Shown piece by piece: positions 1 to 61,828 of a stretch of DNA of 64,000 nucleotides. The DNA comes from Diprion similis (taxonomy: Eukaryota; Arthropoda; Insecta; Hymenoptera; Diprionidae). A program made the position numbers and the translations under genes. Within the stretch, counting starts at the first letter, position 1. The number at the start of each line of letters is the position of its first letter. The DNA is taken from the NCBI RefSeq assembly GCF_021155765.1, contig NC_060109.1:1079001-1143000 (forward strand). Direction: 5' to 3'. The notes below the pieces were generated by a model that was not told the DNA's origin, searched no databases, and was given only the letters and a program-made list of their open reading frames with translations.

Positions 1-2987
<2,987 letters not shown>

Positions 2988-26418: not shown

Positions 26419-26467
26419 TGATAACTCGATTCTATATCAGACCCGCAGAATGAGCGAGCGTCTCAGT
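26419..26467 (+). promoter_or_regulatory. Core promoter of array copy A
   Basis: TGATAA (GATA-type) at 26419-26424, TATATC at 26433-26438 and Inr TCAGT at 26463-26467. With the Inr adenine 26465 as +1 these lie at -46 and -32, and the leader is 28 nt. The same spacing recurs in all seven copies. Confidence 0.7.
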
Positions 26468-26492
26468 ATCCAAAGGATTTTGTCGTGATACG

Positions 26493-29102
26493 ATGTACAA
26501 ATCTGCGGTGATTCTCGTGCTGCTGGTTGGAACGGCGCGTGCGTTTCCACCCAACAATATCTGGGGGGAATCGGTAGCCGAGGATGCCGTCGATAAAAAG
26601 GCTCCGGAAGTCCCGCCGCAAGGATCGGAGGTCGAAAGTCAGAAGGAAGGTGCCACCCAGAAGTCTGACGACGAACTGACCCCGACCATCGCGCTTTCGC
26701 GAACCGAGACACCGTCGTCAGCAACATCCGATCGAAGCACCGAGGTGAGACCGAATTTCGAATCAGAGCTGCTAGCGTGCAATATCGAAATTTGCAGACG
26801 ATTTTCGACGCGAAATTCTGAATCGTCGTCCTTTTGAATAGTCGGAATTTCGATAGTCTGAATTCGAAAAGGGTCAAAATGATCGCGAATTATCAAGGTT
26901 TTGAATATGCAGTTCAAATCGCCGATGGTAACTAAAATATCGAAGGATCATCACCGATTATGGAGAAATTCGAGACCACTTTCAGGAATAAATAATCGCC
27001 AGCGTTTCGACCGCTCTCGGAATTGACCATTTTCGAATTTCGATTCAGTGGGAAAGCTGATCAATACCAATTTTTATCCGCATGCACTGATCAAGAATTG
27101 GACTATGTCCAGTTGATCGCAGAAATTTAATCATTTTGACCGCACGAGGCAAAAGCTGCAACAATTTTCAGACAATTAACGAAGGCCCCGTACTTGAGAG
27201 TGAAAAAATTTTTTCCCATTTTTCAAGTTACCAAAAACAGAATGAATTTCGAAACTAAAAATTATTCTGTTCATCCGTTGACTATAAAATGAATATCTCG
27301 TCTCAAGATACCTCAATTTGAGTAAAGAAACACTTTTTGAACGATTTTAAGATGTTTCGGACATATTTCGGAAATAAACATTTTTTTTTCAAGACTTCCG
27401 TTTTTCTGGCAATGTGAGAATAATTCTCCAAAACAAATAGCGGCAATCGATTGGTCAAAATTCATCTTTCGTTATTTTATTTCCACATATTTGAAATTTC
27501 GATATATCGGCCATTTGCAATATTGGCCCATCCAAGTTTTGACCCCCGTCCGAAAAAATTTGTTTTCTCGTTATTGAAGGATAAGAGTTTCGCAATAGAC
27601 GTTTCTTGCTTACAATTTGGACTTTGTTCGTGACGCATTTGTAATATGTAATTGATAACGTTGCATTATTAACATCGTTGTATTATGCCCGACAGGAAAG
27701 CGAAGAGCCAAAAAAGTTGTGTGAGGAGGATGCGGCGGGCTGTGATTTGCTCGGTGAACTTGCATCACGTCGAAAAAGAACCATCGAAACGCTTCCGTTG
27801 GATCAGCTTCTGAATATTCCGATTGAAAGATTGGGAATGATAGATTTCTCGAACATTGAGATACCAAATATTTCGATCGATAACGCGGAAGTATCAAATC
27901 CTGCACTGATTAATTTACAAGATTTTTCGCAATTCTATATGAACAAACTCCTTGAGACTGGAATAGTGGTTAACGACGGCTCACATATTGAAGAAATTAA
28001 AATAACGAATGTCCCACCGGTTGAGATAAGAAGTGATGGTTCGATAGTAATATCGCTTAGAGAAGTGAAGGTTCCCATTGACATGCCAGGGGATAATTCC
28101 GGCAGTGAGACGAACGCCAGTGAACTGAAAAAGCTTCAAGAAGAGAATCAAGAGATGAAGAAGAAATTGGAGAAGACGGAAGAAGACCTGGCACAGCAAA
28201 CAAAGAAGACCAACGACGAGAAAAATCGAGTAGAGGAGCACTGGAAGAAAGTATTAAAGGAGACCAAACAGAAAGAAGATCAAGAACGTAAAACGCTGCA
28301 GGAAATACATGATGCAGCGGTCAAGGCCTTGGCGGAAGACTTAGCTGATATGAGAGAAAAGTTTAATCAGCAGTCCAGAAATTTCACAACAACGATGCAG
28401 GAAGGAAAGGAAGTTTGTGAGAAGACGTTGAAGGACAACGAAGAAAGAGAAAAACAGGAACGCGAGACGCTGCAGGAAAAACATGATGCAGCGGTGAAGG
28501 AATTGAAGAAAGAATTACATGATTTGAAGGAAGAGTCGCAACAGCAATCCAACAATTTCTCAACGATGGTAAAAGAAGGAAAGAAAGGGTGCGAGAAGTC
28601 ATTGAAGGATTATAAAACGACAGCAGATGAGAAACTCAAAACGCTTCAGGAGGAACACGATGCAGAGGTCAAGGCCTTGGCGGAAGACTTAGCTGATTTG
28701 AGAGAAAAGTTTGATCAGCAGTCCAGAAATTTCACAACAACGATGCAGGAAGGAAAGGAAGTTTGTGAGAAGACGTTGAAGGACAACGAAGAAAGAGAAA
28801 AACAGGAACGCGAGACGCTGCAGGAAAAACATGCCGCTGAAATAGAATCATTGAAGGCAAGCTTGACGGCGGCAGAGCAACTCTCAAACGACTTAGTGAC
28901 ACAAATGAGTCAGTCATCCACTAATTGCAATAAGAACCTGGAGGAAGAGAAGGAACGCTGCAACAACCAACTAACCGAACAAACGGAGCGGGCGAAGAAA
29001 GAACTCGCGGAACGGGAGAACAGTTACGATGCCAGGATAGAGGAGAGGGAGATGCTAATACGAAACATTTTAAACAGTTGTAAACAAAGAAACAGGAGCT
29101 AA
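26493..29102 (+). CDS. Array copy A: secreted coiled-coil proprotein, 552 aa, 3 modules (2 exons)
   Basis: Exon 1 is 26493-26744 and exon 2 is 27696-29102, joined in phase 0 (...STE then ESEEPKK). Residues 1-17 are a signal peptide (MYKSAVILVLLVGTARA). Residues 18-108 form an acidic Pro/Ser/Glu-rich propeptide with cysteines at 93 and 100. RRKR at 109-112 is a furin-type site. After about 110 residues with hydrophobic strand-like stretches (IPIERLGMIDF, GSIVISLREVKVPI) comes a GDNSGSET linker at about 217. From about 225 to the end it is a heptad-like coiled coil. Three 58-residue modules start at 283, 341 and 399 (K/ETLQ...), each with one cysteine near position 43; a non-repeated C-terminal segment starts at 457. 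I recognise no named family. Secretion and processing are inferred from motifs; a structural role as filament, glue or silk-like protein is speculation. Confidence 0.85.
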
Positions 29103-32100
29103 AAATATGTGTGTCAAACCCCTCAAGACGTGAAATGATCCTTTGAATATCACTGATCAATCGGCTACTTTTGTTTCTTATTACATATATAAAAGATAAT
29201 GTATTGTGTAATATAAAAATTGCAAAGTAGACAGTTTTTTCTCACTCAACGATACCCGGTATTTATAGGATTTCTATGAACAAAATTTCCCAAATTCCAC
29301 CAACATCGCCAGTTCACGATCCCGGAGTACAAACGGCACTGCACAAGTTTCACTCGGCAACTTTAGATCCACTCCGACGCATTGTCACATAATTCGTACA
29401 AAAGCAAAGTCTCATTTTGTTTCGGATCGCAAACAAGTTATCCGGGAGGGGGATTCAGCAATGAACGTTACTCTACAATCCGAAATATTCCGACAATCAA
29501 TCTCTCCGAACGAAGTGGGAACAATGCTCGATAATCTTCAAGAAAGAAACGATAAAAATTTATTCATAAAACACGTATACGATAAGGAACTTGAAAGTTG
29601 ATGCAAATTATGTAAAATGGTTCAGCTACACATTCAACTTCGTTTCGTTTCACGGGATGAAATTTCACGTACTGTCGTGCAAACCATTCCGTGGTATGTC
29701 AAAGTATTCACATAAATCATTTTTCACAGAATCGTATCACCTGATCGAACCCTTGAATGAAAAACCACCAGGTCAACAATCCGGAAGTACATCTCCGTGT
29801 GATTGTGTAGGATCTATGCATACATGCATTTTATTAATAAAGAAGTCATCAAATTGACGTAAATAATAACGACAAGGAGATTCCAAAATTGGAATTTGAC
29901 CACCACGTGCAAACGCGAACGCAATAATAAAAAAAATTACACAGACTGGTCAATTTTACGACATTCTGGATTAATCGAGATTCTCGCATGTTTATACTAC
30001 GGAAAACCTGAAAAAAGTTATGTAAATAATATGTATGCATAATCAGAGCGTGAACGACATTCGGTGAATAAAAATTGTATTATTATAATTCAATGTAAAC
30101 GTAAAAAAATTCATTTGCCACCGACATCGAAAATGAGACCTGCGTCTTCACTTTCAACATAAATGCACAGTAAAACTAGTCATTCTTCTGTGCTTTGATT
30201 TTTTTCCGGGACCTTCGTGAAAATTTCACAAACTGTTTGGATTTCGTGAAAAATTTGAAGTTGATTTGCATTTTCTAATTCACATCTTCGATGCTATCTA
30301 ATTCATAATTCACAAGTCCGACGTTATCGGTAGAACGTCACAACCGTAATTCGGTACTTGCTCGTTGGAAGTCACTGGCAACGTGACAATTGACCACCAA
30401 TTTTATTTTACTTTTGCTCTCGTTGAACCGCACGGTTTGGCCCAATGTGGTATCACTGTTTCAGATTATATTTATCAACGATCGCATGTAAATCATACCG
30501 ACTTGCAGACTACGGCTGCCGCAATTCATACGACAACTGTACTTTTATTCACTGATGTTCTTTCATTCTTTATATTTTTACTCGCATTACCAAAATCATC
30601 ATGGCTTTCACGTTGACGGAAGAATCAACAGACGGTCAACCTTGAAAAAATTTTCGTGGCCAGTACTCGGCCGGTAAATTGGCCTGTCTGGGCCTCGAGT
30701 CTTGAGTAGCTGTGTCGCGATCCAGTGTCTTCTTTATCGGCGGGAGCCGTTCAACGCGCAATCCCGAAGGCACAAGAAACTCCATGATGGTAACCGGCGT
30801 TACTCCTGATAGAACACACCTCCTGATCGATCTCAGAATCGCTTAACGGTCACACGGGGTGAAATTCGTGATATTTTACTTTCAGAATGAGTTCTAAAAC
30901 TCTAAAAAAAATATTCAAGTATTCTTTACGGATCACAGAAAAATCTCTCTCAGTTTTCCCAACCAAAATTGATTGTTCAAATATTGTAAAACATCGCCAA
31001 TGTCAAAGACCGTGCCAAGCATGTGGGTAAAGGCATTTGTTTCTCACGAAGAATGGCGCCAAGAGGCCCATTTCCACGACTAAGGGACGCGGGGGACTCT
31101 ACGGAGAGTTTGAGAATTTGTATACATAATCAAATTTCCCGAAAGGCTTAGGAGAGCTAGAAAAAAACAACGTTGTAATGAAATGATAATGATCGATCAC
31201 GCATATACGTACAGACACCCGTGTATTATCGCCATATTCTTACAGAGCGCGGGAATTGCCACAGATAAAACAATCACAGGTCAAGTAAAAAATAAGTAAA
31301 TCAAAATGAGAGAAAAACATTTTATATTTGATATCATGCTTGTTATTCAAATTATAGTTGAATTATCTCAGCACATGACTTTCATGTTGTTTTTATACAC
31401 GAGGAAAAAACTTCAAACCCCATTTCGAACGTTTCTGTATAATCCTGTGAAATTCTAAAAGGAATTCTTTTTGTAAAAGTTTCACGTTTGCTTCAAAATG
31501 GTCCAAGTTCTACGAATTTCTTTGACAAAAGTCTTCAAAACTCGATAACAATGATCGAAAGCTTGAAAAAATTGTGGAAATTCCGTTAAACTCTTAGATT
31601 AAATCATAAGTGGGAATCGCCCATATCTAAAGAATTTTTTTTTCCTCTAAGTTGCGTCATCCGCAGAACATTTCTTTGACGTAAGTTGGATGTAAAAATA
31701 ACACATCAATCACCAACTATCTCCAGATATGCACTCTGCAAAGATTGCCACTCTATAAATTGGCGATTCATTCGGAACCGAAAGTGAATCTTGTCGACGA
31801 TATTGAATGCTTTGTGATAAAATAAAAATCTGAAACAAATAAACCGCAGTGAAGACCTTAGAAAAATTATCCTTGAATACGAATCGTGCCCAAAAGTTAT
31901 CAATAAATTGCTTAAGCAAAACATTGTTTAACAAATTTTCAGGGAATGTTTTTTTTTGTTAATTGAGATGAATTCTTTGAGTTTGCTAAGTACAAATTAT
32001 TTTTCAAGAATTATCAAATTATTTTAAAATTCTCGTTTTCGAAAATTTGTAAAGACTGTATTTACAATACTATTCGTTCGATGTCTTTTTTGATTGTAAT

Positions 32101-32641
32101 GTACAACGTTTTTGCGAAAATGTATCAAAAATTGTAGATTTTTTCTCATTTTTAGAGTGTACTCGGAATTGAATAGTCTCTGGTTAGCTTCCTAACTTTC
32201 GGTGATAAACGTAACGTAACGACCGTTGGTGGTGCCTATTAGGCACACCGCACCTGACCTTGTTTGATTTTTGAAGGACGAACTTTTTTTGTGATCACTT
32301 TTTTTCAATTCAATTTTAATTTTTTTTTTGTGGGAGCAGGGGATGGTTCTTAAATTTTGCCTCCCAAGCGTAAGTATTTTTTTTTTCGGTATTTCTTTGC
32401 GTATGTCCTTTGAATAAATCCTCACAAAGGTAACTAATCTTAATCTCTAGCGTAAGATTATTTAAAATAGGTTTCATGGACGATTTACAAAAATGAGTCC
32501 CTCAGGCACACCGCGTCTGGCTCAAGGAATCTCCCAGTGCACCCAAAGGAGACTTTGAGGACGACCCCACCTCTTGTCTGATGCGGTTTCTCCCATTTCG
32601 GGGAATTTCCAGAAATAATGATAAACAAACAAAGACGGAGC
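29103..32641. other. Spacer A-B of the array
   Basis: Holds the 3' UTR of copy A (AATATA at 29210-29215 is a possible poly(A) signal, conserved after most copies). A segment at about 29461-29600 resembles the ORF at 52307 but is broken by TGA. Another at 30365-30616, open for 83 codons, recurs after B, C and E and in decayed form after D. From about 30430 the spacer aligns at a constant 5,400-bp offset with spacers B-C and C-D. No gene is supported. Confidence 0.5.
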
Positions 32642-32690
32642 TGATAACTCGTATCTGTATCTGAACCGCGGAATGAGCGAGCGTCTCAGT
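32642..32690 (+). promoter_or_regulatory. Core promoter of array copy B
   Basis: TGATAA at 32642-32647, Inr TCAGT at 32686-32690 (+1 at 32688). The TATA position reads TGTATC at 32656-32661, one base off the TATATC of other copies, which may weaken it. Confidence 0.6.
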
Positions 32691-32715
32691 ATCCGATGGA
32701 TTTTGTTGCGGTACG

Positions 32716-35268
32716 ATGTACAAATCCGCGGTGATTCTCGTGCTGTTGGTTGGAACGGCGTGTGCGTTTCCACCCAAAAATATCTTGGGGAAATCGGTAG
32801 CCGAGGATGCCACCGATAAAAAGGCTCCGGAAGTGCCGCCGCAAGGATCGGAGGTCGAAAGTCAGAAGGAAGATGCCACCCGGGAGTCTGACGACGAACT
32901 GACCCCGACCATCGCGCTTTCGCGAACCGAGACGCCGTCGCCAACATCATCCGATCGAAGCACCGAGGTGAGACCGAATTTCGAATCAGAGCTGGTAGCG
33001 TGCAGTACCCAAATTTGCAAACGATTTTCGACGTGAAATTCTGAATCGTCGTGCTTTAGAATAGTCGGAATTTCGATAGTCTGAATTCCAAAAGGGTCAA
33101 AAAGATCGCGAATCATCAAGGTTTCGAATATGCAGTTCAAATCGTCGATAATAATTAAAATATCGAAGGATCCTTACCGATTATGGAAAAATTTGAGAAT
33201 ACTTTCGAATATAAAAAATCGCCAGCATTTCGACCGCTCTCGAAATTGACCATTTTCGAATTTCGATTCAGTGGGAAAGATGATCAATGCCAATTTTTAT
33301 CTGCATGCACTGATCAAGAATTGGATTACAGTCCCGTTGATTGGAGAGATGTAATTATTTCGCATACAATTATTTGCAATGGACGTTGGTTGCTCGCAAT
33401 TTGAACTTTTGTTCATCACGCATTTGTGATATGTAATTGATAACGTTGCATTATTAACATCGTTTTATTATGTCCGACAGGAAATCGAAGAGCCAAAAAA
33501 GTTGTGTGACAATACTGCGACGGGTTGTAATTTGCTCGGTGAACTTGCACCACGTCGAAAAAGAAACACCGAAACGCTCCCGTTGAATCAGACATTAATT
33601 ATTCCGCTTGACAAGCTGGGAGTAATAGATATTTCGAAAATGAAGAAAGCCAATCTTCTGAGCCATAACACGGAAGTACCAAATTATTCGGGGTCCGACA
33701 TGAACAAACCTTTCGAGAGTGTGATAATACTTGACGACAACTCGGATCTCGAACGACTTCACATGACGAATGTTTCACCAAGTGATATGAAAAGTGGTGA
33801 TACGATAGTAATATCGGTTGGAAAAGTGAAGATTCCAATTTTCATATCGAGGGATATTTGCGGCAGTGAGACGAGCACCAACGAATTGAAAAAGCTTCAA
33901 GAAGAGAATGAAGTGGTGAAGAAGAAATTGAAGAAGGCGGAGGAAGACCTGGCAAAGCAAAAACAGGAGTCCAACGATGAGAAAAATCGAATAGAGGAGA
34001 AAGAGAAAGGGAAAGAAGATCAAGAACGTAAGACGCTGCAGGAGAAGTATGATGCAGCGGTGAAGGAATTGGAGGATTATAAATCGACAGCAGAAAAGGA
34101 ATTTAAAACTCTTCAGCAAAAATGTGATGCAGAGGTCAAGGCGTTGGTGGAAGAACTAGCTGATTTGGAAGTGAAGTTTGATCAGCAGTCCAGAAATTTC
34201 ACAAGAACGGTGCAGGAAGAAAAGAAAGCCTGCGAGAGGACATTGAAGGACAACGAAGAAGGAGAGAAACAGAAATGTAAGACGCTGCAGGAAAAGCATG
34301 ATGCAGTGGTGAAGGGATTGAAGGAAGAAATACATGATTTGGAGAAAGGGTCACAACAGCAATCCGACACCGTCACGGCGGTGATACAAAAAGAAAGGAA
34401 AGAGTGCAAGAAGGCATTGGAGGATTATAAATCGACGACAGAAAAGGGACTTAAAACTCTTCAGCAGAAAAATGACGCAGAGGTCAAGGCGTTGGTGGAA
34501 GAATTAGCTGATTTGGAAGTGAAGTATGATGAGCAGTCCAGAAATTTCACAACAACGGTGCAGGAAGAAAAGAGAGCCTGGGAGGAGGCGTTGAAGGACA
34601 ACGAAAAAGGAGAAAACCAGGAACGTAAGAAGCTGCAGGAGAAGTATGATAGAGCGGTGAAGGAATTGGAGGAAGTATTACATGATTTGAAGAAAGAGTC
34701 ACAAAAGCAATCCAACATCTTCACGACAATGATACAAGAAGGAAAGAAAGAGTGCGAGAAGTCATTGAAGGATTATAAAGCGACAGCAGAAAAGGGACTT
34801 AAAACTCTTCAGCAGAAAAATGATGCCGAGGTCAAGGCGTTGGTGGAAGAATTAGCTGATTTGGAAGTGCAGTATGATCAGCAGTCTAGAAATTTCACAA
34901 CAACGGTGCAGGGAGAAAAGCAAGCTTGCGAGGAGATGTTGAAGGGCAACGAAGAAGAAGAAAACCAGGAACGTAAGAAGCTACAGGAAAAACGTGACGA
35001 TGAAATAAAATCATTGGAGGCAAGCTTGACGAAGGCAGAGCAACTCTCAAACGACTTAGCGACACAAATGAGTCGGGTATCCGCTAATTGCAATAAGAAC
35101 CTGGAGGCAGAGAAGGAACGCTGCAACAACCAACTAACCGAACGAACGGAGCGAGCGAAGAAAGAACTCGCGGAACGGAAGGACAGTTGCGATGCCAGGA
35201 TAAAGGAGAAAGAAACGAATATGAAAAAACTACAAGATCTTTTGGCATTGTGTCGCAAAATTGGGTGA
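32716..35268 (+). CDS. Array copy B: secreted coiled-coil proprotein, 679 aa, 5 modules (2 exons)
   Basis: Exon 1 32716-32967 (84 residues), exon 2 33481-35268 (595 residues), intron only 513 bases. The propeptide cysteines are in a CDNTATGC context and the cleavage site is RRKR at 109-112. The domain after the site (NTETLPLNQTLIIPLDKLGVIDIS...) differs clearly from copy A, placing B, C and D in one subfamily. The coiled coil has a truncated module, then five full 58-residue modules alternating between two types (KTLQQKxDAEVKALVEEL and K-x-LQEKxD...), then a C-terminal segment with SANCNKNLEAEKERC. In one module the usual cysteine is replaced by Trp (KRAWEEAL). The frame is intact. Confidence 0.85.
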
Positions 35269-38041
35269 ATCTAGTAATATGTGCATCAAACCCTTTAAAA
35301 CGTGAAATGATTCCCTGAATATCACTGATCGGTCGATTACGTTTGTGTCTTATCTTATAGCTCTCTAGTATTGTGTAATATAAAAATTACAATATTATAA
35401 TGTAGACAGGTTTTACTGACTGAACGATACCCAGTGTTGACGGTATTTCGATACTGCGCAGAAGGGAAAAAACAAATAAAGAGAGAACACGTATACAATA
35501 AGGAACTTGAAAGTTACTGCATTTAACTTAGTTTTTAACTTAGTAACGTAGTTAGAAAATGAGCGCTGCGTCTTCACTTTCAGCATAAATGCACAGTAAA
35601 ACTACTCATTCTTGTGTGCTTTTATTTTCTTCCGGGACCTTCGTGACAATTTCACAAACTGTTTGGATTTCGTGAAAAAATTGAAGTTGATTTGCTTTTT
35701 CTCATTCACATCTCCGATGCTATCTAATTTATAATTCACAAGTCCGACGTTACTTACTTGCTCTTTGAATGTCACTTTCAACGTGGCAATAGTTCACCAA
35801 TTATATTTATCTTCTGCTCTTGTTGAACCGCACGGCGTGGCCCAATGTGGTATCACTGTTTCAGATTATATTTATCAACGATCGCATGTAAATCATACCG
35901 ACTTGCAGACTACGGCTGCCGCAATTCATACGACAACTGTACTTTTATTCACTGATGTTCTTTCATTCGTTATATTTTTACTCGCATTACCAAAATCATC
36001 ATGGCTTTCACGTTGACGGAAGAATCTACAGACGGTCAACCCTGAAAAAATTTTCGTGGCCAGTACTCGGCCGGTAAATTGGCCTGTCTGGGCCTCGAGT
36101 CTTGAGTAGCTGTGTCGCGATCCAGTGTCTTCTTTATCGGCGGGAGCCGTTCAACGCGCAATCCCGAAGGCACAAGAAACTCCATGATGGTAACCGGCGT
36201 TACTCCTGATAGAACACACCTCCTGATCGATCTCAGAATCGCATAACGGTCACACGGGGTGAAATTCGTGATATTTTACTTTCAGAATGAGTTCTAAAAC
36301 TCTAAAAAAAATATTCAAGTATTCTTTACGGATCACAGAAAAATCTCTCTCAGTCCTCCTAACCAAAATTGATTGTTCAAATATTGTAAAACATCGCCAA
36401 TGTCAAAGACCGTGCCAAGCATGTGGGTAAAGGCATTTGTTTCTCATGAAGAATGGCGCCAAGAGGCCCATTTCCACGACTAAGGGACTCGGGGGACTCT
36501 ACGGAGAGTTTGAGAATTTGTATACATAATCAAATTTCCCGAAAGGCTTAGGAGAGCTAGAAAAAAACAACGTTGTAATGAAATGATAATGATCGATCAC
36601 GCATATACGTACAGACACCCGTGTATTATCGCCATATTCTTACAGAGCGCGGGAATTACCACAGATAAAACAATCACAGGTCAAGTAAAAAATGAGTAAA
36701 TCAAAATGAGAGAAAAACATTTTATATTTGATATCATGCTTGTTATTCAAATTATAGTTGAATTATCTCAGCACATGACTTTCATGTTGTTTTTATACAC
36801 GAGGAAAAAACTTCAAACCCCATTTCGAACGTTTCTGTATAATCCTGTGAAATTCTAAAAGGAATTCTTTTTGTAAAAGTTTCACGTTTGCTTCAAAATG
36901 GTCCAAGTTCTACGAATTTCTTTGACAAAAGTCTTCAAAACTCGATAACAATGATCGAAAGCTTGAAAAAATTGTGGAAATTCCGTTAAACTCTTAGATT
37001 AAATCATAAGTGGGAATCGCCCATATCTAAAGAATTTTTTTTTCCTCTAAGTTGCGTCATCCGCAGAACATTTCTTTGACGTAAGTTGGATGTAAAAATA
37101 ACACATCAATCACCAACTATCTCCAGATATGCACTCTGCAAAGATTGCCACTCTATAAATTGGCGATTCATTCGGAACCGAAAGTGAATCTTGTCGACGA
37201 TATTGAATGCTTTGTGATAAAATAAAAATCTGAAACAAATAAACCGCAGTGAAGACCTTAGAAAAATTATCCTTGAATACGAATCGTGCCCAAAAGTTAT
37301 CAATAAATTGCTTAAGCAAAACATTGTTTAACAAATTTTCAGGGAATGTTTTTTTTTGTTAATTGAGATGAATTCTTTGAGTTTGCTAAGTACAAATTAT
37401 TTTTCAAGAATTATCAAATTATTTTAAAATTCTCGTTTTCGAAAATTTGTAAAGACTGTATTTACAATACTATTCGTTCGATGTCTTTTTTGATTGTAAT
37501 GTACAACGTTTTTGCGAAAATGTATCAAAAATTGTAGATTTTTTCTCATTTTTAGAGTGTACTCGGAATTGAATAGTCTCTGGTTAGCTTCCTAACTTTC
37601 GGTGATAAACGTAACGTAACGACCGTTGGTGGTGCCTATTAGGCACACCGCACCTGACCTTGTTTGATTTTTGAAGGACGAACTTTTTTTGTGATCACTT
37701 TTTTTCAATTCAATTTTAATTTTTTTTTTGTGGGAGCAGGGGATGGTTCTTAAATTTTGCCTCCCAAGCGTAAGTATTTTTTTTTTCGGTATTTCTTTGC
37801 GTATGTCCTTTGAATAAATCCTCACAAAGGTAACTAATCTTAATCTCTAGCGTAAGATTATTTAAAATAGGTTTCATGGACGATTTACAAAAATGAGTCC
37901 CTCAGGCACACCGCGTCTGGCTCAAGGAATCTCCCAGTGCACCCAAAGGAGACTTTGAGGACGACCCCACCTCTTGTCTGATGCGGTTTCTCCCATTTCG
38001 GGGAATTTCCAGAAATAATGATAAACAAACAAAGACGGAGC
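35269..38041. other. Spacer B-C of the array
   Basis: Short 3' UTR with AATAAA near 35475, then the 83-codon open segment at 35765-36016 and about 2 kb of non-coding DNA shared with the other spacers. The empty version of the MITE M1 insertion site (cagtaaaactactcatt) is at about 35594. Confidence 0.5.
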
Positions 38042-38090
38042 TGATAACTCGTATCTGTATCTGAACCGCGGAATGAGCGAGCGTCTCAGT
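38042..38090 (+). promoter_or_regulatory. Core promoter of array copy C
   Basis: Identical to that of copy B: TGATAA at 38042-38047, TGTATC at 38056-38061, TCAGT at 38086-38090. Confidence 0.6.
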
Positions 38091-38115
38091 ATCCGATGGA
38101 TTTTGTTGCGGTACG

Positions 38116-40668
38116 ATGTACAAATCCGCGGTGATTCTCGTGCTGTTGGTTGGAACGGCGTGTGCGTTTCCACCCAAAAATATCTTGGGGAAATCGGTAG
38201 CCGAGGATGCCACCGATAAAAAGGCTCCGGAAGTGCCGCCGCAAGGATCGGAGGTCGAAAGTCAGAAGGAAGATGCCACCCGGGAGTCTGACGACGAACT
38301 GACCCCGACCATCGCGCTTTCGCGAACCGAGACGCCGTCGCCAACATCATCCGATCGAAGCACCGAGGTGAGACCGAATTTCGAATCAGAGCTGGTAGCG
38401 TGCAGTACCCAAATTTGCAAACGATTTTCGACGTGAAATTCTGAATCGTCGTGCTTTAGAATAGTCGGAATTTCGATAGTCTGAATTCCAAAAGGGTCAA
38501 AAAGATCGCGAATCATCAAGGTTTCGAATATGCAGTTCAAATCGTCGATAATAATTAAAATATCGAAGGATCCTTACCGATTATGGAAAAATTTGAGAAT
38601 ACTTTCGAATATAAAAAATCGCCAGCATTTCGACCGCTCTCGAAATTGACCATTTTCGAATTTCGATTCAGTGGGAAAGATGATCAATGCCAATTTTTAT
38701 CTGCATGCACTGATCAAGAATTGGATTACAGTCCCGTTGATTGGAGAGATGTAATTATTTCGCATACAATTATTTGCAATGGACGTTGGTTGCTCGCAAT
38801 TTGAACTTTTGTTCATCACGCATTTGTGATATGTAATTGATAACGTTGCATTATTAACATCGTTTTATTATGTCCGACAGGAAATCGAAGAGCCAAAAAA
38901 GTTGTGTGACAATACTGCGACGGGTTGTAATTTGCTCGGTGAACTTGCACCACGTCGAAAAAGAAACACCGAAACGCTCCCGTTGAATCAGACATTAATT
39001 ATTCCGCTTGACAAGCTGGGAGTAATAGATATTTCGAAAATGAAGAAAGCCAATCTTCTGAGCCATAACACGGAAGTACCAAATTATTCGGGGTCCGACA
39101 TGAACAAACCTTTCGAGAGTGTGATAATACTTGACGACAACTCGGATCTCGAACGACTTCACATGACGAATGTTTCACCAAGTGATATGAAAAGTGGTGA
39201 TACGATAGTAATATCGGTTGGAAAAGTGAAGATTCCAATTTTCATATCGAGGGATATTTGCGGCAGTGAGACGAGCACCAACGAATTGAAAAAGCTTCAA
39301 GAAGAGAATGAAGTGGTGAAGAAGAAATTGAAGAAGGCGGAGGAAGACCTGGCAAAGCAAAAACAGGAGTCCAACGATGAGAAAAATCGAATAGAGGAGA
39401 AAGAGAAAGGGAAAGAAGATCAAGAACGTAAGACGCTGCAGGAGAAGTATGATGCAGCGGTGAAGGAATTGGAGGATTATAAATCGACAGCAGAAAAGGA
39501 ATTTAAAACTCTTCAGCAAAAATGTGATGCAGAGGTCAAGGCGTTGGTGGAAGAACTAGCTGATTTGGAAGTGAAGTTTGATCAGCAGTCCAGAAATTTC
39601 ACAAGAACGGTGCAGGAAGAAAAGAAAGCCTGCGAGAGGACATTGAAGGACAACGAAGAAGGAGAGAAACAGAAATGTAAGACGCTGCAGGAAAAGCATG
39701 ATGCAGTGGTGAAGGGATTGAAGGAAGAAATACATGATTTGGAGAAAGGGTCACAACAGCAATCCGACACCGTCACGGCGGTGATACAAAAAGAAAGGAA
39801 AGAGTGCAAGAAGGCATTGGAGGATTATAAATCGACGACAGAAAAGGGACTTAAAACTCTTCAGCAGAAAAATGACGCAGAGGTCAAGGCGTTGGTGGAA
39901 GAATTAGCTGATTTGGAAGTGAAGTATGATGAGCAGTCCAGAAATTTCACAACAACGGTGCAGGAAGAAAAGAGAGCCTGGGAGGAGGCGTTGAAGGACA
40001 ACGAAAAAGGAGAAAACCAGGAACGTAAGAAGCTGCAGGAGAAGTATGATAGAGCGGTGAAGGAATTGGAGGAAGTATTACATGATTTGAAGAAAGAGTC
40101 ACAAAAGCAATCCAACATCTTCACGACAATGATACAAGAAGGAAAGAAAGAGTGCGAGAAGTCATTGAAGGATTATAAAGCGACAGCAGAAAAGGGACTT
40201 AAAACTCTTCAGCAGAAAAATGATGCCGAGGTCAAGGCGTTGGTGGAAGAATTAGCTGATTTGGAAGTGCAGTATGATCAGCAGTCTAGAAATTTCACAA
40301 CAACGGTGCAGGGAGAAAAGCAAGCTTGCGAGGAGATGTTGAAGGGCAACGAAGAAGAAGAAAACCAGGAACGTAAGAAGCTACAGGAAAAACGTGACGA
40401 TGAAATAAAATCATTGGAGGCAAGCTTGACGAAGGCAGAGCAACTCTCAAACGACTTAGCGACACAAATGAGTCGGGTATCCGCTAATTGCAATAAGAAC
40501 CTGGAGGCAGAGAAGGAACGCTGCAACAACCAACTAACCGAACGAACGGAGCGAGCGAAGAAAGAACTCGCGGAACGGAAGGACAGTTGCGATGCCAGGA
40601 TAAAGGAGAAAGAAACGAATATGAAAAAACTACAAGATCTTTTGGCATTGTGTCGCAAAATTGGGTGA
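38116..40668 (+). CDS. Array copy C: identical duplicate of copy B, 679 aa
   Basis: Exon 1 38116-38367, exon 2 38881-40668. No nucleotide difference from copy B was seen in exons or intron. Either both are expressed and double the dose, or the pair is an assembly duplicate of one locus. Confidence 0.82.
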
Positions 40669-43639: not shown

Positions 43640-43664
43640 ATCCGATGGATTTTGTTGCGGTACG

Positions 43665-46600: not shown

Positions 46601-46923
46601 AGAAGCTACAGGAAAAACGTGACGATGAAATAAAATCATTGAAGGCAAGCTTGACGAAGGCAGAGCAACTCTCAAACGACTTAGCGACAAAAATGAGTCT
46701 GGTATCCACGAATCGCGATATGAACCTGGAGGCAGAGAAGGAAATCTGCAACAACCAACTAACTGAACAAACGAAGCGGGCGAAGGAGGAACTCGCGGAA
46801 CGGGAGGACAGGATAAAGGAGCAGGACTCCCGTATAACAACACTAGAAGAACTTTTGGAACCATGTCGCAGACTTTTGCGAAATTCGAAATCTTTTTGTG
46901 AAACCTTTCAAGACGGGGAATGA
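43665..46923 (+). CDS. Array copy D: secreted coiled-coil proprotein, 845 aa, 8 modules (2 exons)
   Basis: Exon 1 43665-43916, exon 2 44638-46923 (761 residues). Longest member. The cleavage site is RQKR at 109-112 (R-x-K-R kept). The domain after it resembles B and C at its start, but the stretch before the coiled coil (DGSISISLGEVKVPIDISGDNSGSET) resembles A, E and F, so D looks mosaic. The coiled coil contains four 116-residue dyads, that is eight 58-residue modules, visible in DNA as a 348-bp tandem repeat; adjacent dyads are almost identical, which implies recent expansion. Three of the four modules of one type have Trp (KKAWEEAL) where others have Cys. The C-terminus is distinct (LEELLEPCRRLLRN...). 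Confidence 0.85.
45300..46610 (+). repeat. 348-bp tandem repeats inside exon 2 of copy D
   Basis: Equivalent positions recur every 348 bases, for example the agtccagaaatttcaca/agtctagaaatttcaca motif at about 45463, 45811, 46159 and 46507. Each 348-bp unit equals two related 58-codon modules. The frame is kept because 348 is divisible by 3. Confidence 0.85.
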
Positions 46924-49759: not shown

Positions 49760-49784
49760 ATCCGAGGGATATTGTCGTGGTACG

Positions 49785-51948
49785 ATGTACAAATTTGCGG
49801 TGATTCTCGTGCTGCTGGCTGGAACGGCGTGTGCGTTTCCACCCAACAATATCTGGGAGGAATCGGTAGCCGAGGATGCCGTCGATGAAAAGGCTCCGGA
49901 AGTCTCGCCGCAAGGATCGGAGGTCGAAAATCAGAAGGAAGGTGCCACCCGGAAGTCTGACGACGAACTGACCCCGACCATCGCGATTTCGCGAACCAAA
50001 ACGCCGTCGCCAGCATCATTCGATCGAAGCACCGAGGTGAGACCGAATTGCGAATCAGAGCTGGTAACGTGCAGTATCCAAATTTGCAGACGATTTTCGA
50101 CGCGAAATTCTGAATCGCCGTGCTTTTGAATAGTCGGAATTTCGATGGTCTGAATTCCAAAAGGGTCAAAATGATTGCGAATCATCAAGGTTTCGAACAT
50201 CAGTTCAAATCAGCGATAATAACCTAAATATCGAAGGTTCCTCACCGATTATGGAAAAATTGGAGAATACTTTGGGAAATAAAAAATCGTCAGCGTTTCG
50301 ACCGCTCTCGAAATCGACCATTTTCGAATTTCGATTCAGTGGGAAGTTGATCAATGCCAATTTTGATCCGCATGCACTGATCAAGAATTGGACTAATTGA
50401 AAGTGAAAAAATTTTTCCCATTTTTCAAGTTACCAAAAAGAGAATAAATTTCGAGACCAAAGATTATTCTGTCAATCCGTTGACTATAAAATGAATATGT
50501 CGTCTCAAGATACCTTTATTTGAGTAAATAAACACTTTTTGGACGATTTTAAGATGTTTTGGACATATTTCGGAAATAAACATATTTTTTCAAGATTTCC
50601 GTTATTCTGGCAATGTAAGAATAATTCTCCAAAACGAAAAGCGGCAATCGACTCGTCAAAAACTTGAAGGTCAAAATTCGGAAGAGTCATCATTGCGAAT
50701 GGCCGATATATCGAAATTTCAAACACGTGGAAATAAAATAACGGAAGATAAATTGTTCGGAATCTATAGTCACCGGTTGGTAGTCATTCTAATCAGCGAA
50801 ACTTTCAAAAATCAAGATTTCGAAAAATTCATCTTTCGTTATTTTCTTTTCACATATTTGAAATTTCGATATATCGGCCATTTGCAATATTGGCCCATCC
50901 AAGTTTTGACCCCCCACCCGGAAAAATTTGTTCTTTCGTTATTGAAGGATAAGAGTTTCGCAATAGACGTTTCTTGCTCAAAATTTAGACTTTCTTCATT
51001 ACGCATTTGTAATATGTAATTGATAACATTGCATTATTAACATCGTTTTATTATGCCCGACAGGAGAGCGAAGAGCCAAAAAAGTTGTGTGAGGAGGATG
51101 CGGCGGGCTGTGATTTGCTCGGTGAACTTGCATCGCGTCGAAAGAGAACCATCGAAACGCTTCCGTTGGATCAGCCTCTGAATATTCCGATCGAAAGCTT
51201 GGGAATAATAGATTTCTCCAACATTGAGATACCAAATTTTTCGATCGATAACGCGGAAGTATCAAATCATGTACAGATTAACTTACAAGATTTTTCGCAA
51301 TTCGATATGAACAAACTTCTGGAGAATGGGATAATAGTTAACGACGGCTCACATATTGGAGAAATTAAAATAACGAATGATTCACCGGTTGAGATAAGAA
51401 GTGATGACTGGATAGCAATATCGTTTGGAGAAGTGAAGATTCCCATTGACATGCCAGGGGATAATTCCGGCAGTGAGACGAGCGCCAATGAAGTGAAAAA
51501 ACTTCAAGAAGAGAATGAAGTGATGAAGAAGAAATTGGAGAAGGCGGAAGAAGACCTGGCACAGCAAACAAAGAAGTACAACGAGGAGAAAAATCGAGTA
51601 GAAGAGAACTGGAAAAAGGTATTAGAGGAGACCAAAGAGAAAGAAGATCAAGAACGTAAAACGCTGCAGGAAAAACATGACGCTGAAATAGAATCATTGA
51701 AGGCAAGCTTGACGACGGCAAACCAATTCTCAGTGAACTTAGCGGCAAAACTGAATCAGCAAACCATTAATTGCAATACCAACCTGGAGGCAGAGAAGGA
51801 ACGCTGCATCAACCAACTAACCGAACGAACGACGCAGGCGGAGATAAGACGCACACAACTAGAAAACAGTTACAATGACATTATAAAGCAGAAGGAGATG
51901 GAAATACAAGAACTTATAATCGTTTGTAAACGAATTGACCCGAGGTAG
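49785..51948 (+). CDS. Array copy E: secreted coiled-coil proprotein, short form, 378 aa, no modules (2 exons)
   Basis: Exon 1 49785-50036, exon 2 51064-51948 (294 residues), intron 1,027 bases. The signal peptide is MYKFAVILVLLAGTACA. CEEDAAGC and RRKR at 109-112 match copy A, as does the following domain (TIETLPLDQPLNIPIESLGIIDFSN). The coiled coil goes directly from the SANEVKKLQEENEVMKKK start to the C-terminal segment without any full 58-residue module. The C-terminal cysteine region (INCNTNLEAEKERC) is kept. Together with F it shows the minimal architecture. Confidence 0.85.
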
Positions 51949-55843: not shown

Positions 55844-55892
55844 TGATAACTCGTATCTATATCTGAACCGCGGAATGAGCGATCGTCTCAGT
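55844..55892 (+). promoter_or_regulatory. Core promoter of array copy F
   Basis: TGATAA at 55844-55849, TATATC at 55858-55863, TCAGT at 55888-55892; +1 at 55890, leader 28 nt. Confidence 0.7.
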
Positions 55893-55917
55893 ATCCGAGG
55901 GATTTTGTCGTGGTACG

Positions 55918-58161
55918 ATGTACAAATTTGCGGTGATTCTCGTGCTGCTGGCTGGAACGGCGTGTGCGTTTCCACCCAACAATATCTGGGAGGAATCGGT
56001 AGCCGAGGATGCCGTCGATGAAAAGGCTCCGGAAGTCTCGCCGCAAGGATCGGAGGTCGAAAGTCAAAAGGAAGGTGCCACCCGGAAGTCTGACGACGAA
56101 CTGACCCCGATTATCGCGCTTTTACGAACCAAAACGCAGTCGCCAACATCATCCGATCGAAGCACCGAGGTAAGACCGAATTGCGAATCAGAGCTGGTAG
56201 CGTGCAGTATCCAAATTTGCAGACGATTTTCGACGCGAAATTCTGAATCGCCGTGCGTTTGAATAGTCGGAGTCCCGATAGTCTGAATTCGAAAAGGGTC
56301 AAAATGATCGCGAATCATCAAGGTTTCAAATATGCAGTTCAAATCGGCGATAATAACCTAAATGTCGAAGGATCCTCACCGATTATAGAAAGATTGGAGA
56401 ACACTTTCGAAAATTAAAAATCGCCAGCATTTCAACCGCTCTCGAAATTGACCATTTTCGAATTTTGATTCAGTGGGAAAGCTGACCAATACCAATTTTG
56501 ATCCGCATGCACTTAATAAGATTTGGATTACAGTCCCGTTGATTGGAGAGATGTAATTATTTTGTCCGCACGAGGCGAAAGCTGCAACAATTTTCAAACA
56601 ATTAACGAAGGCCCCGTAATTGGAAGTGAAATTTTTTTTCCCGTTTTTCAAGTTACCAAAAACACAATGAAATTTCAAAACTAAAGATTATTCTGTTGAT
56701 CCGTTGTTTATGAAATGAATATGTCGTCTCAAGATACCTTTATTTGAGTAAAGAAACACTTTTTGGACGATCTTAGAATGTTTTGGACATATTTCGGAAC
56801 TAAACATTTTTTTTCAAGATTTCCGTTTTTCTGGCATTGTAAAAATAATTCTCCAAAACAAATAGCGGCAATCGATTTGTCAAAAACTTGGTTGGAGATC
56901 AAAATTTGGAAGAGTCATCATTGCGAATGGCCGATATATCGGAATTTCACATATGTGAAAATAAAATAATAAAAGGTAAATTGTTCGAAATCTTAAGTCA
57001 TCAGCTGGTAGTCATTCTGATCAGCGACACTTTCAAGAATCAAGATTTCGAAAAATTCATCTTTCGTTATTTTATTTTCGCATTTTTGAAATTTCGATAT
57101 ATCGGCGATTCGTAAAGTTTTCACCCCCAATCGAAAACATTTGCTTTCTCATTATTGAAGGATGAGAGTTTCGCAATAGACGTTTCACGGTCAAAATTTG
57201 GCCTTTGTTCATTACGCATTTGTAATATGTAATTGATAACATTGCATTATTAACATCGTTTTATTATGCCCGACAGGAGAGCGAAGAGCCAAAAAAGTTG
57301 TGTGAGGAGGATGCGGCGGGCTGTGATTTGCTCGGTGAACTTGCATCGCGTCGAAAGAGAACCATCGAAACGCTTCCGTTGGATCAGCCTCTGAATATTC
57401 CGATCGAAAGCTTGGGAATAATAGATTTCTCCAACATTGAGATACCAAATTTTTCGATCGATAACGCGGAAGCATCAAATCATGTACAGATTAACTTACA
57501 AGATTTTTCGCAATTGGATATGAACAAACTTCTGGAGAATGGGATAATAGTTAACGACGGCTCACATATTGGAGAAATTAAAATAACGAATGATTCACCG
57601 GTTGAGATAAGAAGTGATGACTGGATAGCAATATCGCTTGGAGAAGTGAAGGTTCCCATTGACATGCCAGGGGATAATTCCGGCAGTGAGACGAGCGCCA
57701 ATGAAGTGAAAAAACTTCAAGAAGAGAATGAAGTGATGAAGAAGAAATTGGAGAAGGCGGAAGAAGACCTGGCACAGCAAACAAAGAAGTACAACGAGGA
57801 GAAAAATCGAGTAGAGGAGAACTGGAAGAAGGTATTAGAGGAGACCAGAGAGAAAGAAGATCAAGAACGTAAGACGCTGCAGGAGAAACATGACGCTGAA
57901 ATAGAATCATTGAAGGCAAGCTTGACGACGGCAAACCAATTCTCAGTGAACTTAGCGGCAAAACTGAATCAGCAAACCACTAATTGCGATAAGAACCTGA
58001 AGGCAGAGAAGGAACGCTGCAAGAACCAACACACTGGACGAACGACGCAGGCGGAGAAAAGACTCGCACAACTAGAAAACAGTTACAATGACATTATAAA
58101 GCAGAAGGAGATAGATATACAAAACCTTTTAAATAGTTGTAAACAAAGAAATAGGAGCTAA
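55918..58161 (+). CDS. Array copy F: secreted coiled-coil proprotein, short form, 378 aa, no modules (2 exons)
   Basis: Exon 1 55918-56169 (donor GTAAGA rather than GTGAGA), exon 2 57277-58161. Closest paralog is E: same length, same domain, with scattered replacements. Its last residues (NLLNSCKQRNRS) instead match those of copy A, as does the 3' UTR start, which suggests past gene conversion or unequal exchange between A-like and E-like copies. RRKR at 109-112. Frame intact. Confidence 0.85.
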
Positions 58162-59326
58162 AAATATGTGTGTCAAACCCCTCAAGACGTGAAATGATCC
58201 TTTGAATATCACTGATCAATCGGCTACTTTTGTTTCTTATTACATGTATAAATGATAATGTATTGTGTAATATAAAAATTGCAAAGTAGACAGTTTTTTC
58301 TCACTCAACGATACCCGGTATTTATAGGATTTCTATGAACAAAATTTCCCAAATTCCACCAACATCGCCAGTTCACGATCCCGGAGTACAAACGGCACTG
58401 CACAAGTTTCACTCGGCAACTTTAGATCTACTGCGACGCATTGTCACATAATCTGTACAGAAGCGAAGTCTCATTTTGTTTCGGATCGCAAACAAGTTAT
58501 CCGGGAGGGGGATTCAGCAATGAACGTTACTCTACAATCCGAAATATTCCGACAATCAATCTCTCCGAACGAAGTGGGAACAATGCTCGATAATCTTCAA
58601 GAAAGAAACGACAAAAATTTATTTATAAAACACGTATCCTTGGTAATATGTTTGTTTATAGAATTTTTTATTGTACTAAAAGGTACGGAAAAATGGCAAC
58701 AAATCATGCTTTATGTTTACACCCCTCTAAAAAATACTGAATTAAAAATACTGAAGAAAAACCTTCCAGTTCAAATAGAACCGGAGTTATGAATTTTTGA
58801 AAATGAGTCTACAAGCCGAAAATCACCAGTTTCCTAAATTTTTGATCCTCTCTGTTTTTTTTTTAAATACAGAAAAAAAATCCTTAAATACGTGCCGCAT
58901 TTTCGATCCAAAAGCCGTAAAAAAAATCATATAAATCAAAGATGTCTCGGTCAGAACGGTGTTCGGTTTGTAAAAGAAAATCCCAAATTGTTCATCTGTA
59001 AAAAAAAATTCGAGACAAATGATACGTTCACACTGAAATGGTCAAAGTTCTACACAAACAGTGTTTATTAGATTAAAGATTAAATATCAAGTGGGGATTA
59101 CTGATGTCGTAGCAATACTTCTTTTCAAGTTACGTAAGCTACAGAAAATATTTTCTGCGTAAATTGGATGTAAAAATAACACATCAATTACCAACGAGCT
59201 GTAGACATGCGGTTCACAAAGATTGCTCGTTATCATTAAATGATGACCCCTGTCTTCTTGTCCGAAGAATTTTTTCCCCATACATAGGGAATTCCAAGCA
59301 TAATCATCAACACACAGGCACTGACC
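58162..59326. other. Spacer F-G of the array
   Basis: Shortest spacer. It matches spacer E-F until about 58637, then jumps to sequence seen much further along in E-F and D-E (ccttggtaatatgtttgtt...), so some 1.9 kb is missing relative to E-F. A lone right arm of the E-F fold-back lies at about 58745-59000. Confidence 0.5.
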
Positions 59327-59375
59327 TGATAACTCGGTTCTATATCTGAACCGCGGAATGAGCGAGCGTCTCAGT
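59327..59375 (+). promoter_or_regulatory. Core promoter of array copy G
   Basis: TGATAA at 59327-59332, TATATC at 59341-59346, TCAGT at 59371-59375; +1 at 59373, leader 28 nt. Confidence 0.7.
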
Positions 59376-59400
59376 ATCCGAGGGATTTTGTCGTGGTACG

Positions 59401-61828
59401 ATGTACAAATTTGCGGTGATTCTCGTGCTGCTGGCTGGAACGGCGTGTGCGTTTCCACCCAACAATATCTGGGGGGAATCGGTAGCCGAGGATATCGTCG
59501 ATAAAAAGGCTCCGGAAGTCCCGTGGCAAGGATCGGAGGTCGAAATTCAAAAGGAAGATGCCACCCGGGAGTCTGACGACGACCTGACCCCGACCATCGC
59601 GATTTCGCGAACCAAGACGCCGTCGCCAGCATCATCAGATCGAAGCACCGAGGTGAGACCGAATTTCGAATCAGAGCTGGTAGCGTGCAGTATCCAAATT
59701 TGCAGACGATTTTCGACGCGAAATTCTGATTTACCGTGCTTTTGAATAATCGGAATTTTCGATAGTTTGAATTCGAGAATGGTCAAAATGATCGCAAATC
59801 ATCAAGGTTTCGAATATGCAGTTTAAATTGCCGATAATAATCTAAATATCGAACGATCCTAACCGATTATGGAAAAATTCGGGAACACTTTCAGAAATGA
59901 AAATTTTCAGTATTTCGACCGTTCTCGAAATCGACTATTTTCGAAATTCGAATCAATGCCAATTTTTATCCGCGTGAACTGAACAAGAAGTACACTATAG
60001 TTTAGGTAATTGCAGAAATGTAATGATTTGGTTCGCGTGACGCAAAAGCTTTAAAAATTTTCAATAAATTAACGGAAGTAACGCATTTAAAAGGTAAAAG
60101 TTTTTTTTAATTCTATTACTCTACGAAAAATGAAATATGAAATTCAAAACGCGATATTGTTCGGTGAGAGAAATATTTTTCTGGTTTACTATACGTAGAC
60201 ATTCAGTTGAGAAAATACAAATTGGATGAGAAATGTTGTTCCTCAAACGTGATTCATTATGCCCTGAAAAAATGGTGCAATTTCATCAATAATTATTGAA
60301 ATTCAGATTCAAATTTTTCTTATCACGGTGTGTGAAGCATTTGCATAACAATCGCTCGTCTCAAATTGCTGATACGATTTCTTTTCGGAAGTTTCCAACG
60401 AAATATGTAAGCTCATAATAAGAATATGATGAATGAATTTTCGATACGCCTTGTTGAGTAGAGTCCAACGCAATTGATAGACTAATTCATTATTTCGTTG
60501 TCGAATGATAAAAGTTTCGGTACAGATGTTTTTTTATCTCAGTTCAAACCGTCGTTCAGTGTCAGCTTCTGATGTGCAAGCGCGTTATTATTATCGTTGA
60601 AAAAAACGTCGCAAGAAAATGAAGAGATTTTAATAAAGTTGCCAATTTTTTTTTCAAACAGGAGAATGAAGAGGCAAAAACGTTATGCGCCGAGGATGAG
60701 GCACCCTGCGATTCCCTTGATGAAGCTACGTCACGTCAGAAGAGAAATACCGAAAAGTTATCTTGGAATCAGATAACAAACTTTCCGATGGACAACGTGA
60801 AAGTTATAACAATGGACGATCTGCCGAATTTCCAGGGAATTAACATACCCGATCTTAGTAATATCGATTTCGAAAAGCTTGTGATGGGTGATGTGAAAGG
60901 TTTTGAGATCCCAAATTCGTATCAGATTCAGATACCGAATTTATCCGGGATTCAGATACCGGATTTATCCGGGATTCAGATACCAGATCTTTCGAAGCTC
61001 GGTTTACAAGATCTTCTAGATGGTCAAATAAAAATTGAGAATATTCCTGACCTCCAGGGGATTAAAATAACAGATGGTATTTTGAATGGAAGCTCTGCGG
61101 TAGGAGTAATATTCGGAAATGCCAACGATACCAATATACTGGATGGTTCGTTCTTCAATAACGCTGGAGCCGGTAACGCGAATAGCGAAGCAGTAGGAAA
61201 GCTTCAAAAAGAGGTTGAAGCGTTGACGAAAAAGTTGGAGGAGGCGGAAAAAAATCTTGCGCTCAAGGAACTTGCAATCCAAGAATCCAACAAGGAGAAA
61301 GAGAAACTGAAAGATGACTGGCAGAAGGTATTGAAGGAGAACGAAGGGAAAAAAGAAGAATGTAAGACGCTTCAGGAGAAACATGATGCAAAGGTCAAGG
61401 CCTTGACGGAAGAATTAGGTGATTTGAGAAAAAAGTCAGACGAACAGTCCAAGAATTTCACTACGATAGTAGTGGAAACAGACAACAAGTGCGAGAAGAC
61501 ATTGAAGGACAACGAAGAAAGAGAAAAGCAGGAACGTAAGACGCTGCAGGAAAAACATGACGCTGAAATAGAATCATTGAAGGCAAGCTTGACGGCGGCA
61601 GACCAATTCTCATCGAAATTAACGGCAGAACTGAATCGGTTAACCACTAATTCCAATACGAACCTGAAGGCAGAGGAAGAACGTTGCGACAACGAACTAA
61701 CCGAACTAACGACGCTGGAGGAGAAAAAACGTGCAGACCTGGAGAACAGTTACAATGACATTATAAAGCAGAAGGAGCTGGATATACAAAACCTTTTAAA
61801 TATTTGTAAACAAAAAAACCAGAACTAG
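59401..61828 (+). CDS. Array copy G: divergent secreted coiled-coil proprotein, 472 aa, 1 module (2 exons)
   Basis: Exon 1 59401-59652, exon 2 60662-61828 (388 residues). Exon 1 is almost the same as in E and F, but exon 2 and most of the intron are far more diverged, so G is the oldest branch or has received a conserved exon 1 by conversion. Cysteines at 93 and 100 and RQKR at 109-112 keep exact spacing. The domain after the site is longer and includes three tandem IQIPxLSG repeats at about 173-195, encoded by a 24-bp repeat starting at 60926. One full 58-residue module (KTLQEKHDAKVKAL...) precedes the C-terminal segment; the usual C-terminal cysteine motif has lost its first Cys (TTNSNTNLKAEEERC). 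Confidence 0.83.
60926..60997 (+). repeat. 24-bp coding repeat (three units) in copy G
   Basis: Encodes IQIPNLSG, IQIPDLSG and IQIPDLSK in a row; found only in copy G. Confidence 0.8.

Follow-up and report, generated by a model that had tools for sequence, protein, structure and literature searches.

What kind of protein is encoded by seven similar genes that stand in a row in the genome of the pine sawfly Diprion similis, and what might such a protein be used for? Diprionid sawflies are conifer pests. The genes, termed g1 to g7 here, occupy positions 26419-61828 of a 64,000-nucleotide stretch of DNA (the window; contig NC_060109.1, positions 1,079,001 to 1,143,000), to which all coordinates below refer. 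A preliminary description of this stretch had proposed an array of secreted, convertase-processed coiled-coil genes without a recognised family. Judged from their sequences, the genes appear to represent a genuine family, undescribed as far as searched and restricted to pine sawflies, whose proteins are of a secreted type and stand out by the unusual period of their predicted helix and by heads that can be swapped. As the product we favour an extracellular glycoprotein material held together by disulfide bonds (for the cocoon, or as an egg or salivary glue), and we give this reading slightly less than an even chance.

Organization of the gene array

All seven genes are intact, consist of two exons and are arranged head-to-tail in the same (+) orientation, as had been described before. 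Every model is open from the ATG to the stop codon, and the GT-AG introns share a common position and the same phase. The first exon comprises 252 nucleotides (nt; 84 codons) in each gene and is followed by a long second exon: 26493..26744 and 27696..29102 in g1, 32716..32967 and 33481..35268 in g2, 38116..38367 and 38881..40668 in g3 (both identical to g2), 43665..43916 and 44638..46923 in g4, 49785..50036 and 51064..51948 in g5, 55918..56169 and 57277..58161 in g6, and 59401..59652 and 60662..61828 in g7, whose stop codon forms the end of the array. Several acceptors are possible per gene and the first was taken; RefSeq makes the same choice for g7 and g2/g3 as well as for g6, whose protein is identical there. 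The resulting proteins have lengths of 552, 679, 679, 845, 378, 378 and 472 amino acids (aa) from g1 to g7 and are, as expected from the preliminary description, rich in glutamate (11.6-15.7%) and lysine (8.4-14.4%), with an alanine content of 6.1-6.9%.

A search of the 269-Mb assembly (60 contigs) with a piece of g1 exon 2 and with an exon 1 DNA probe led in each case to seven places, all of them inside the window; a very divergent relative elsewhere may have escaped these probes. Chance can be excluded as the origin of the open frames, since none of 300 neutral runs remained stop-free in any of four settings (0.10-0.20 substitutions per site; g1, g4 and g7). Gaps in the nucleotide alignments are in 50 of 63 cases not multiples of three in the introns; 26/36 are multiples of three in exon 2, and the 10/36 exceptions all fall into the g1-g5, g1-g6 and g1-g7 alignments and are probably due to misaligned internal repeats. 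Upstream of all seven ATGs, a proximal region of 260 aligned nt can be compared. It contains TATAT in five of the seven genes (g2 and g3 read TGTAT) and, some 30 nt further on, TCAGT in six of the seven (TTAGT in g5). By resemblance to consensus, these motifs are TATA-like and initiator-like, respectively, and mark a putative promoter; in g1 the core-promoter-like block spans 26433..26467 (+; TATAT 26433-26437, TCAGT 26463-26467, 32 nt from the first T to the A).

Family identity and distribution

Searches of 5.8 billion proteins by one sequence, one region and one profile revealed 10 distinct relatives (P0001-P0010), all carrying Diprion or Neodiprion names. These searches require shared 5-residue words, and the profile search scored the best 7,995 candidates; remote relatives in other sawflies may therefore have been missed. 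The lineage specificity that had been suspected could in this way be narrowed to two genera in the database searched. No homology to aculeate coiled-coil silk was seen among the word-based matches, which leaves room for very distant homology.

The RefSeq names of the relatives are mutually unrelated (myosin-11-like, MRCK alpha-like, axoneme-associated mst101(2)-like, DNA ligase 1-like and M protein-like), and names such as myosin-11-like are misleading. Identities as myosin, golgin, SMC or AAA-lid proteins were rejected; all Pfam and NCBIfam matches of the window proteins stayed under the curated cut-offs. Three relatives (P0007, P0009 and P0010) did score above the cut-off of PF21396 (AAA_lid_12). 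This match is best over 33 residues within a charged 58-aa unit of the helix and was rejected, as was a precomputed PF27241 label on P0006 that our own profile search did not reproduce. PDB sequence searches with the P0003 protein and the g4 helix gave no match at E<=0.01. The strong match to a myosin tail, golgin or known silk that might have placed the genes in a characterised family was thus not found, and the view that they belong to no recognised family stands. Among the matches listed in the open-access literature, no description of this family was apparent from titles and abstract starts, subscription journals being outside this coverage.

Predicted secretion and convertase processing

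A signal peptide followed by an R-x-K-R motif implies secretion and trimming by a convertase. Residues 1-17 display a basic start, a hydrophobic core and an A-x-A end in the 12 complete members listed, and were called as a signal peptide by rule, without a trained predictor. In g1, exon 1 encodes this signal peptide (1-17) and residues 18-84 of the propeptide. The acidic propeptide with its C-x6-C motif recurs in 7/7 window proteins (Cys93 and Cys100), and R-x-K-R begins at residue 109 (109-112) in every one of them; both elements had been predicted correctly. The site reads RRKR in g1 (27768-27779), g2 (33553-33564) and g5 (51136-51147) and RQKR in g4 (44710-44721) and g7 (60734-60745). Its R, K and R are invariant in a 9-row alignment, and R109, K111, R112, C93 and C100 are retained across head types and both genera. 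No further membrane-like segment was detected, the top 19-residue window past the signal peptide scoring 1.34 (12 proteins). The g1-g7 products are therefore best described as putative secreted, convertase-trimmed proproteins.

A predicted non-heptad helical stalk with 58-residue units

AlphaFold predicts the C-terminal part as a single unbroken helix, which spans residues 225-377 in P0001 (153 residues; predicted local distance difference test score, pLDDT, ~96) and residues 259-452 in P0003 (194 residues). The corresponding segments lie at 28122-29099 in g1, 33883-35265 in g2, 45040-46920 in g4 and 61190-61825 in g7, and a short version is found at 51490-51945 in g5. Hydrophobic residues recur with a period of 3.585-3.625 (~3.62) residues in 12/12 proteins on three scales. 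The power at 3.5 is far below this peak, in contrast to the GCN4 zipper control, which peaks at 3.495. In 33 of 36 protein-scale tests, 0/100 shuffles reached the peak; in the remaining three, this happened in 1 and 3 shuffles of 100 (both g5) and in 6 of 100 (g7). Because the 58-residue repeat described below forces peaks to fractions of 58, regions without perfect repeats were examined separately. The unit-free proteins of g5 and g6 still peak at 3.615-3.625. Summed over 12 proteins, the C-terminal 110 residues give a peak at 3.60; individually the proteins lie at 3.57-3.63, except g4 with 3.41. A period of 58/16 corresponds to four hendecads plus two heptads and yields a nearly straight hydrophobic stripe. 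The family helix is consequently not a heptad coiled coil: of the coiled coil originally proposed, the long helix holds as a prediction, whereas the heptad signal is missing.

This also bears on the idea that the genes are cytoskeletal or encode myosin/golgin-like coiled coils, for which the first three of the RefSeq names given above would speak. With a signal peptide and a convertase-type site in all complete family members, no heptad signal and no PDB sequence match for P0003 or the g4 helix at E<=0.01, we consider that explanation barely credible.

The helices differ in the number of 58-aa units they contain: three in g1 (28293-28814), five in g2 (34108-34977; residues 294-583) and likewise five in g3, eight in g4 (45211-46602), one in g7 (61367-61540) and none in g5 and g6. 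Neodiprion helices also carry units. Units were counted in register, including those starting with A or V or with Cys at position 6, and a hybrid stretch at residue 269 of g2 was excluded. From the unit counts and from the trees below we omitted g3 (identical to g2), P0001 (identical to g6), P0002 and P0003 (deviating models) and P0008 (partial), resulting in 38 units (31 distinct), 17 from Diprion and 21 from Neodiprion. A cysteine at position 42, located on the hydrophobic stripe, is present in 34/38 units, and just three other cysteines occur in all units together. An N-x-S/T sequon covers positions 30-32 in 25/38 units (Diprion 11/17, Neodiprion 14/21). The units of g4 follow an alternating pattern: of the four that have an NFT site, three carry Trp42 and the last one Cys, while the four units without this site carry Cys42, which gives a 116-aa super-unit.

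Exchangeable heads

Between the convertase-type site and the helix, the proteins carry a segment, referred to here as the head, that comes in three kinds. The A-type is found in g1-g6 as well as in P0004 and P0005 (27780-28121 in g1, 33565-33882 in g2, 44722-45039 in g4 and 51148-51489 in g5). The B-type with its IPDLS-like motifs occurs in g7 (60746-61189, with IQIPDLSG repeats), P0006 and P0007. Two Neodiprion proteins, P0009 and P0010, have the C-type, a proline-rich, cationic segment of 58 aa with three Cys and an isoelectric point (pI) of 11.7-11.9. The preliminary description had seen a hydrophobic domain at this place; instead, the six Diprion heads computed are acidic (pI 4.1-5.0), and AlphaFold gives the head no confident structure (pLDDT <50 up to residue 222 in P0001 and 259 in P0003). 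PDB matches of the g1 head to a D13 scaffold were dismissed (best E 0.77).

On both sides of the head, as far as RQKR-TI and from EKLQ onwards, P0009 agrees near-perfectly with the B-type protein P0006; the flanks are 89-96% identical and the heads unrelated. The C head thus appears to have been swapped into a B-type frame. Its cationic charge and its place after an acidic propeptide would fit a released proline-rich antimicrobial peptide, but in sequence it stays joined to the stalk. It matches no Pfam family and no PDB sequence at E<=1, and no known antimicrobial peptide family emerged from these two sources. In Diprion, a tblastn search of the window plus 10 kb on each side returned only a chance-level match to the C-type head (E 0.52), the rest of the genome not being searched.

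Mosaic evolution and substitution rates

Trees of 12 sequences differed strongly between the parts of the genes. Exon 1 splits by genus (100/100), and a grouping of the B and C types is rejected by the approximately unbiased (AU) test (p-AU 1e-8). The same split by genus (100/100) is obtained for the C-terminal tail, where a grouping by types is rejected with p-AU 9e-57. For the region beside the cleavage site and the helix start (54 columns), the split follows the head type across genera (100/100), and Diprion monophyly is rejected for the cleavage-site region (p-AU 0.0021). Similarly, g1 and g7 differ in exon 1 by a synonymous divergence (dS) of 0.05, while saturation is reached in the pre-helix part (dS 2.8). 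Since exon 1 and tail group by genus and the centres by head type, both gene ends have been homogenised within each lineage; gene conversion or unequal exchange is the presumed cause. In Neodiprion, where the rows come from several species, this homogenisation is to be understood at the level of the genus and not of a single species. The A and B centres are thus older than the split between Diprion and Neodiprion.

The ratio of nonsynonymous to synonymous divergence (dN/dS) is high. It amounts to 0.74-2.22 in 18/21 pairs for exon 1 (the other three have no synonymous change), to 0.48-1.27 in 13 pairs for the pre-helix part (six g7 pairs are saturated with dS 1.3-2.8, two have no synonymous change) and to 0.50-1.84 in 20/21 pairs for the helix. 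Pooled over 10 non-independent pairs, the ratio is 0.75 for the signal peptide and 1.25 for the propeptide. Ratios of ~0.5-2 could point to a relaxed, largely neutral family heading to decay. Against this stand the seven open frames, the lack of a single stop-free run in the neutral simulations and the preservation of R109, K111, R112, C93 and C100 across head types and genera, and we regard decay as very improbable.

Nonsynonymous differences exceed intron divergence for the g2-g4 pre-helix (p 0.02) and the g1-g5 helix (p 7e-7), in a test with approximate site counts and uncorrected p values. As gene conversion and repeat misalignment, to which both pairs are open, can mimic such an excess, positive selection is suggested at most. 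The main rival reading takes the proteins for fast-evolving secreted effectors that would act in saliva on pine or as ovipositor or egg-secretion proteins against tree, parasitoids or microbes, with an active head and the helix as a multimerising stalk. It draws on the exon 1 and pre-helix rates, on the same two excesses and on the replaceable heads, one of them cationic behind an acidic propeptide. PMC10784483 moreover describes diprionin, an annexin-like protein through which the egg secretion of Diprion pini acts on pine. The cationic head itself lacks a Pfam or PDB match, and overall we consider an effector role possible but rather unlikely. The same rates and array, together with the secreted, processed anatomy, would also suit proteins of the reproductive tract that belong to seminal fluid, spermatophore or egg coat and evolve under sexual conflict; nothing in the evidence is specific to reproduction, and this proposal seems improbable to us.

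A possible extracellular material

How could such proteins form the extracellular material considered at the outset? We take them for a diprionid-specific, tandemly duplicated family of secreted proproteins, whose sequences show a head of one of at least three types and an uninterrupted predicted helix, the latter being lengthened in steps of 58 residues (0 to 8 units per gene). The acidic propeptide may keep the rods apart until release and would be removed by a furin-like convertase late in the secretory pathway. Once free, the rods could pack side by side as hendecad-rich helical bundles, which should be near-straight because the hydrophobic stripe has a period of ~3.62 residues. In most units the single Cys lies on this stripe and would link chains by disulfide bonds, and the N-x-S/T site beginning at position 30 of most units would bear a glycan on the flank. 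Such an assembly would probably yield a disulfide-linked, glycosylated fibre, gel or glue used as cocoon, egg-sealing or salivary material, whose binding partners might be set by the head. Within a genus, exon 1 and tail would be kept uniform by gene conversion or unequal exchange, while the heads go on diverging or are replaced.

Several observations weigh against this assembly model. The sequon is missing from 6/17 Diprion and 7/21 Neodiprion units, and Cys42 is replaced by Trp in 4/17 Diprion units, so that each of the two is dispensable. For g7, one scale gives only a weak periodicity (the 6/100 shuffles mentioned above), and the signal was below the shuffled 95% level in a second analysis. 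A helix predicted by AlphaFold as a single chain says nothing about bundling, and Foldseek against the PDB found no match at E<=0.001. Finally, dN/dS values of ~0.5-2 would suit proteins in an arms race or under weak constraint no less than a load-bearing material.

If the idea of a secreted material is taken further, the family might represent a class of extracellular material in animals that has had no name so far. Its helical rods would be near-straight and non-heptad, with one core Cys and one glycan site in most 58-residue units; its convertase-exposed head would be swapped as a cassette, and the ends responsible for secretion and assembly would be kept uniform by gene conversion. One of the heads, a cationic, proline-rich peptide, would then remain tethered and confer antimicrobial or binding activity. 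We deem this extended version unlikely.

Recent duplication, public gene models and other features of the window

The genes g2 and g3 are part of an exact tandem duplication (31295..42113) with an offset of 5,400 nt and an identical run of 5,419 nt; one copy is therefore either of very recent origin or a product of duplication in the assembly. Three Diprion family models were returned by the protein searches (P0001-P0003). P0001 (uncharacterized protein LOC124406326, Diprion similis) is identical to the predicted g6 protein. P0002 (g2/g3) and P0003 (g7) deviate from the open frames of the window by intronic, flanking or skipped pieces, and for this reason the three models provide weak evidence of transcription. 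We rejected P0002 as the true model of g2/g3, as its extra pieces represent intron or 3' flank. It counts intron pieces (33270-33350 and 38670-38750) as an extra exon; homologues of the longer piece carry stops in 4/5 other non-identical copies, and the public model thus looks wrong. P0003 lacks 18 residues (g7 291-308) inside the open exon (60662-61828), which may reflect a mini-intron or a model error.

Outside the array, positions 2410-2823 (+) match Pfam Methyltransf_15 (RNA cap guanine-N2 methyltransferase; E 2e-30) and probably belong to the end of a TGS1-like gene extending back to the window start. An open reading frame at 8385-8864 (-) begins like a signal peptide and contains a GFGKR motif for amidation and cleavage (GFKPEYLSTAIGFGKR), which makes it neuropeptide-precursor-like in appearance; it has no Pfam match. 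Positions 20027-20443 and 21682-21990 give very similar translations on both strands and are probably a local repeat or the relic of a mobile element.

Comparison with known systems

Should the family indeed make such a material, it would supply the genes behind it and, for biomaterials, a helical design that does without heptads. Its mosaic pattern is a clear natural case of a gene with both ends homogenised and a middle that diverges and is swapped, and it shows that a single orphan family is masked by automatic names such as myosin-11-like, DNA ligase 1-like and M protein-like. No diprionid cocoon protein was described in the titles and abstract starts among the literature matches listed.

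The coiled-coil silk fibroins of Aculeata are alanine-rich heptad coils. Like the family studied here, these silk proteins of bees, ants and hornets are hymenopteran, secreted and helical and form a small multigene family (PMC6150510, in whose reference list the title of a hornet paper calls the silk alanine-rich). The family differs by its alanine content of 6.1-6.9%, as already recognised in the preliminary description, by the period of ~3.62 and by its propeptide, convertase-type site, sequons and repeat Cys. The silk of a willow sawfly is, according to PMC12976744, a collagen in which Gly-Pro-Pro repeats form a triple helix. Both are secreted sawfly proteins, but Gly-Pro-Pro repeats were looked for in the family proteins and none were found, and a structural role is here a proposal. 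Neither of these known hymenopteran materials fits the family.

Among more distant systems, the Balbiani-ring silk proteins of chironomids are likewise secreted and built from tandem repeats each with a conserved Cys, a likeness by description only. Hendecad or near-straight stalks of surface proteins, e.g. tetrabrachion, share the hydrophobic period above 3.5 and the stalk layout, but are prokaryotic and serve as an analogy only. Insect effector arrays such as the secreted salivary gland proteins (SSGPs) of the Hessian fly resemble the family in their uniform exon 1, diverging exon 2, tandem arrangement and high dN/dS. In contrast to these SSGPs, the sawfly family also has a homogenised C-terminal tail, and its mature protein is predicted to be a long helical rod.

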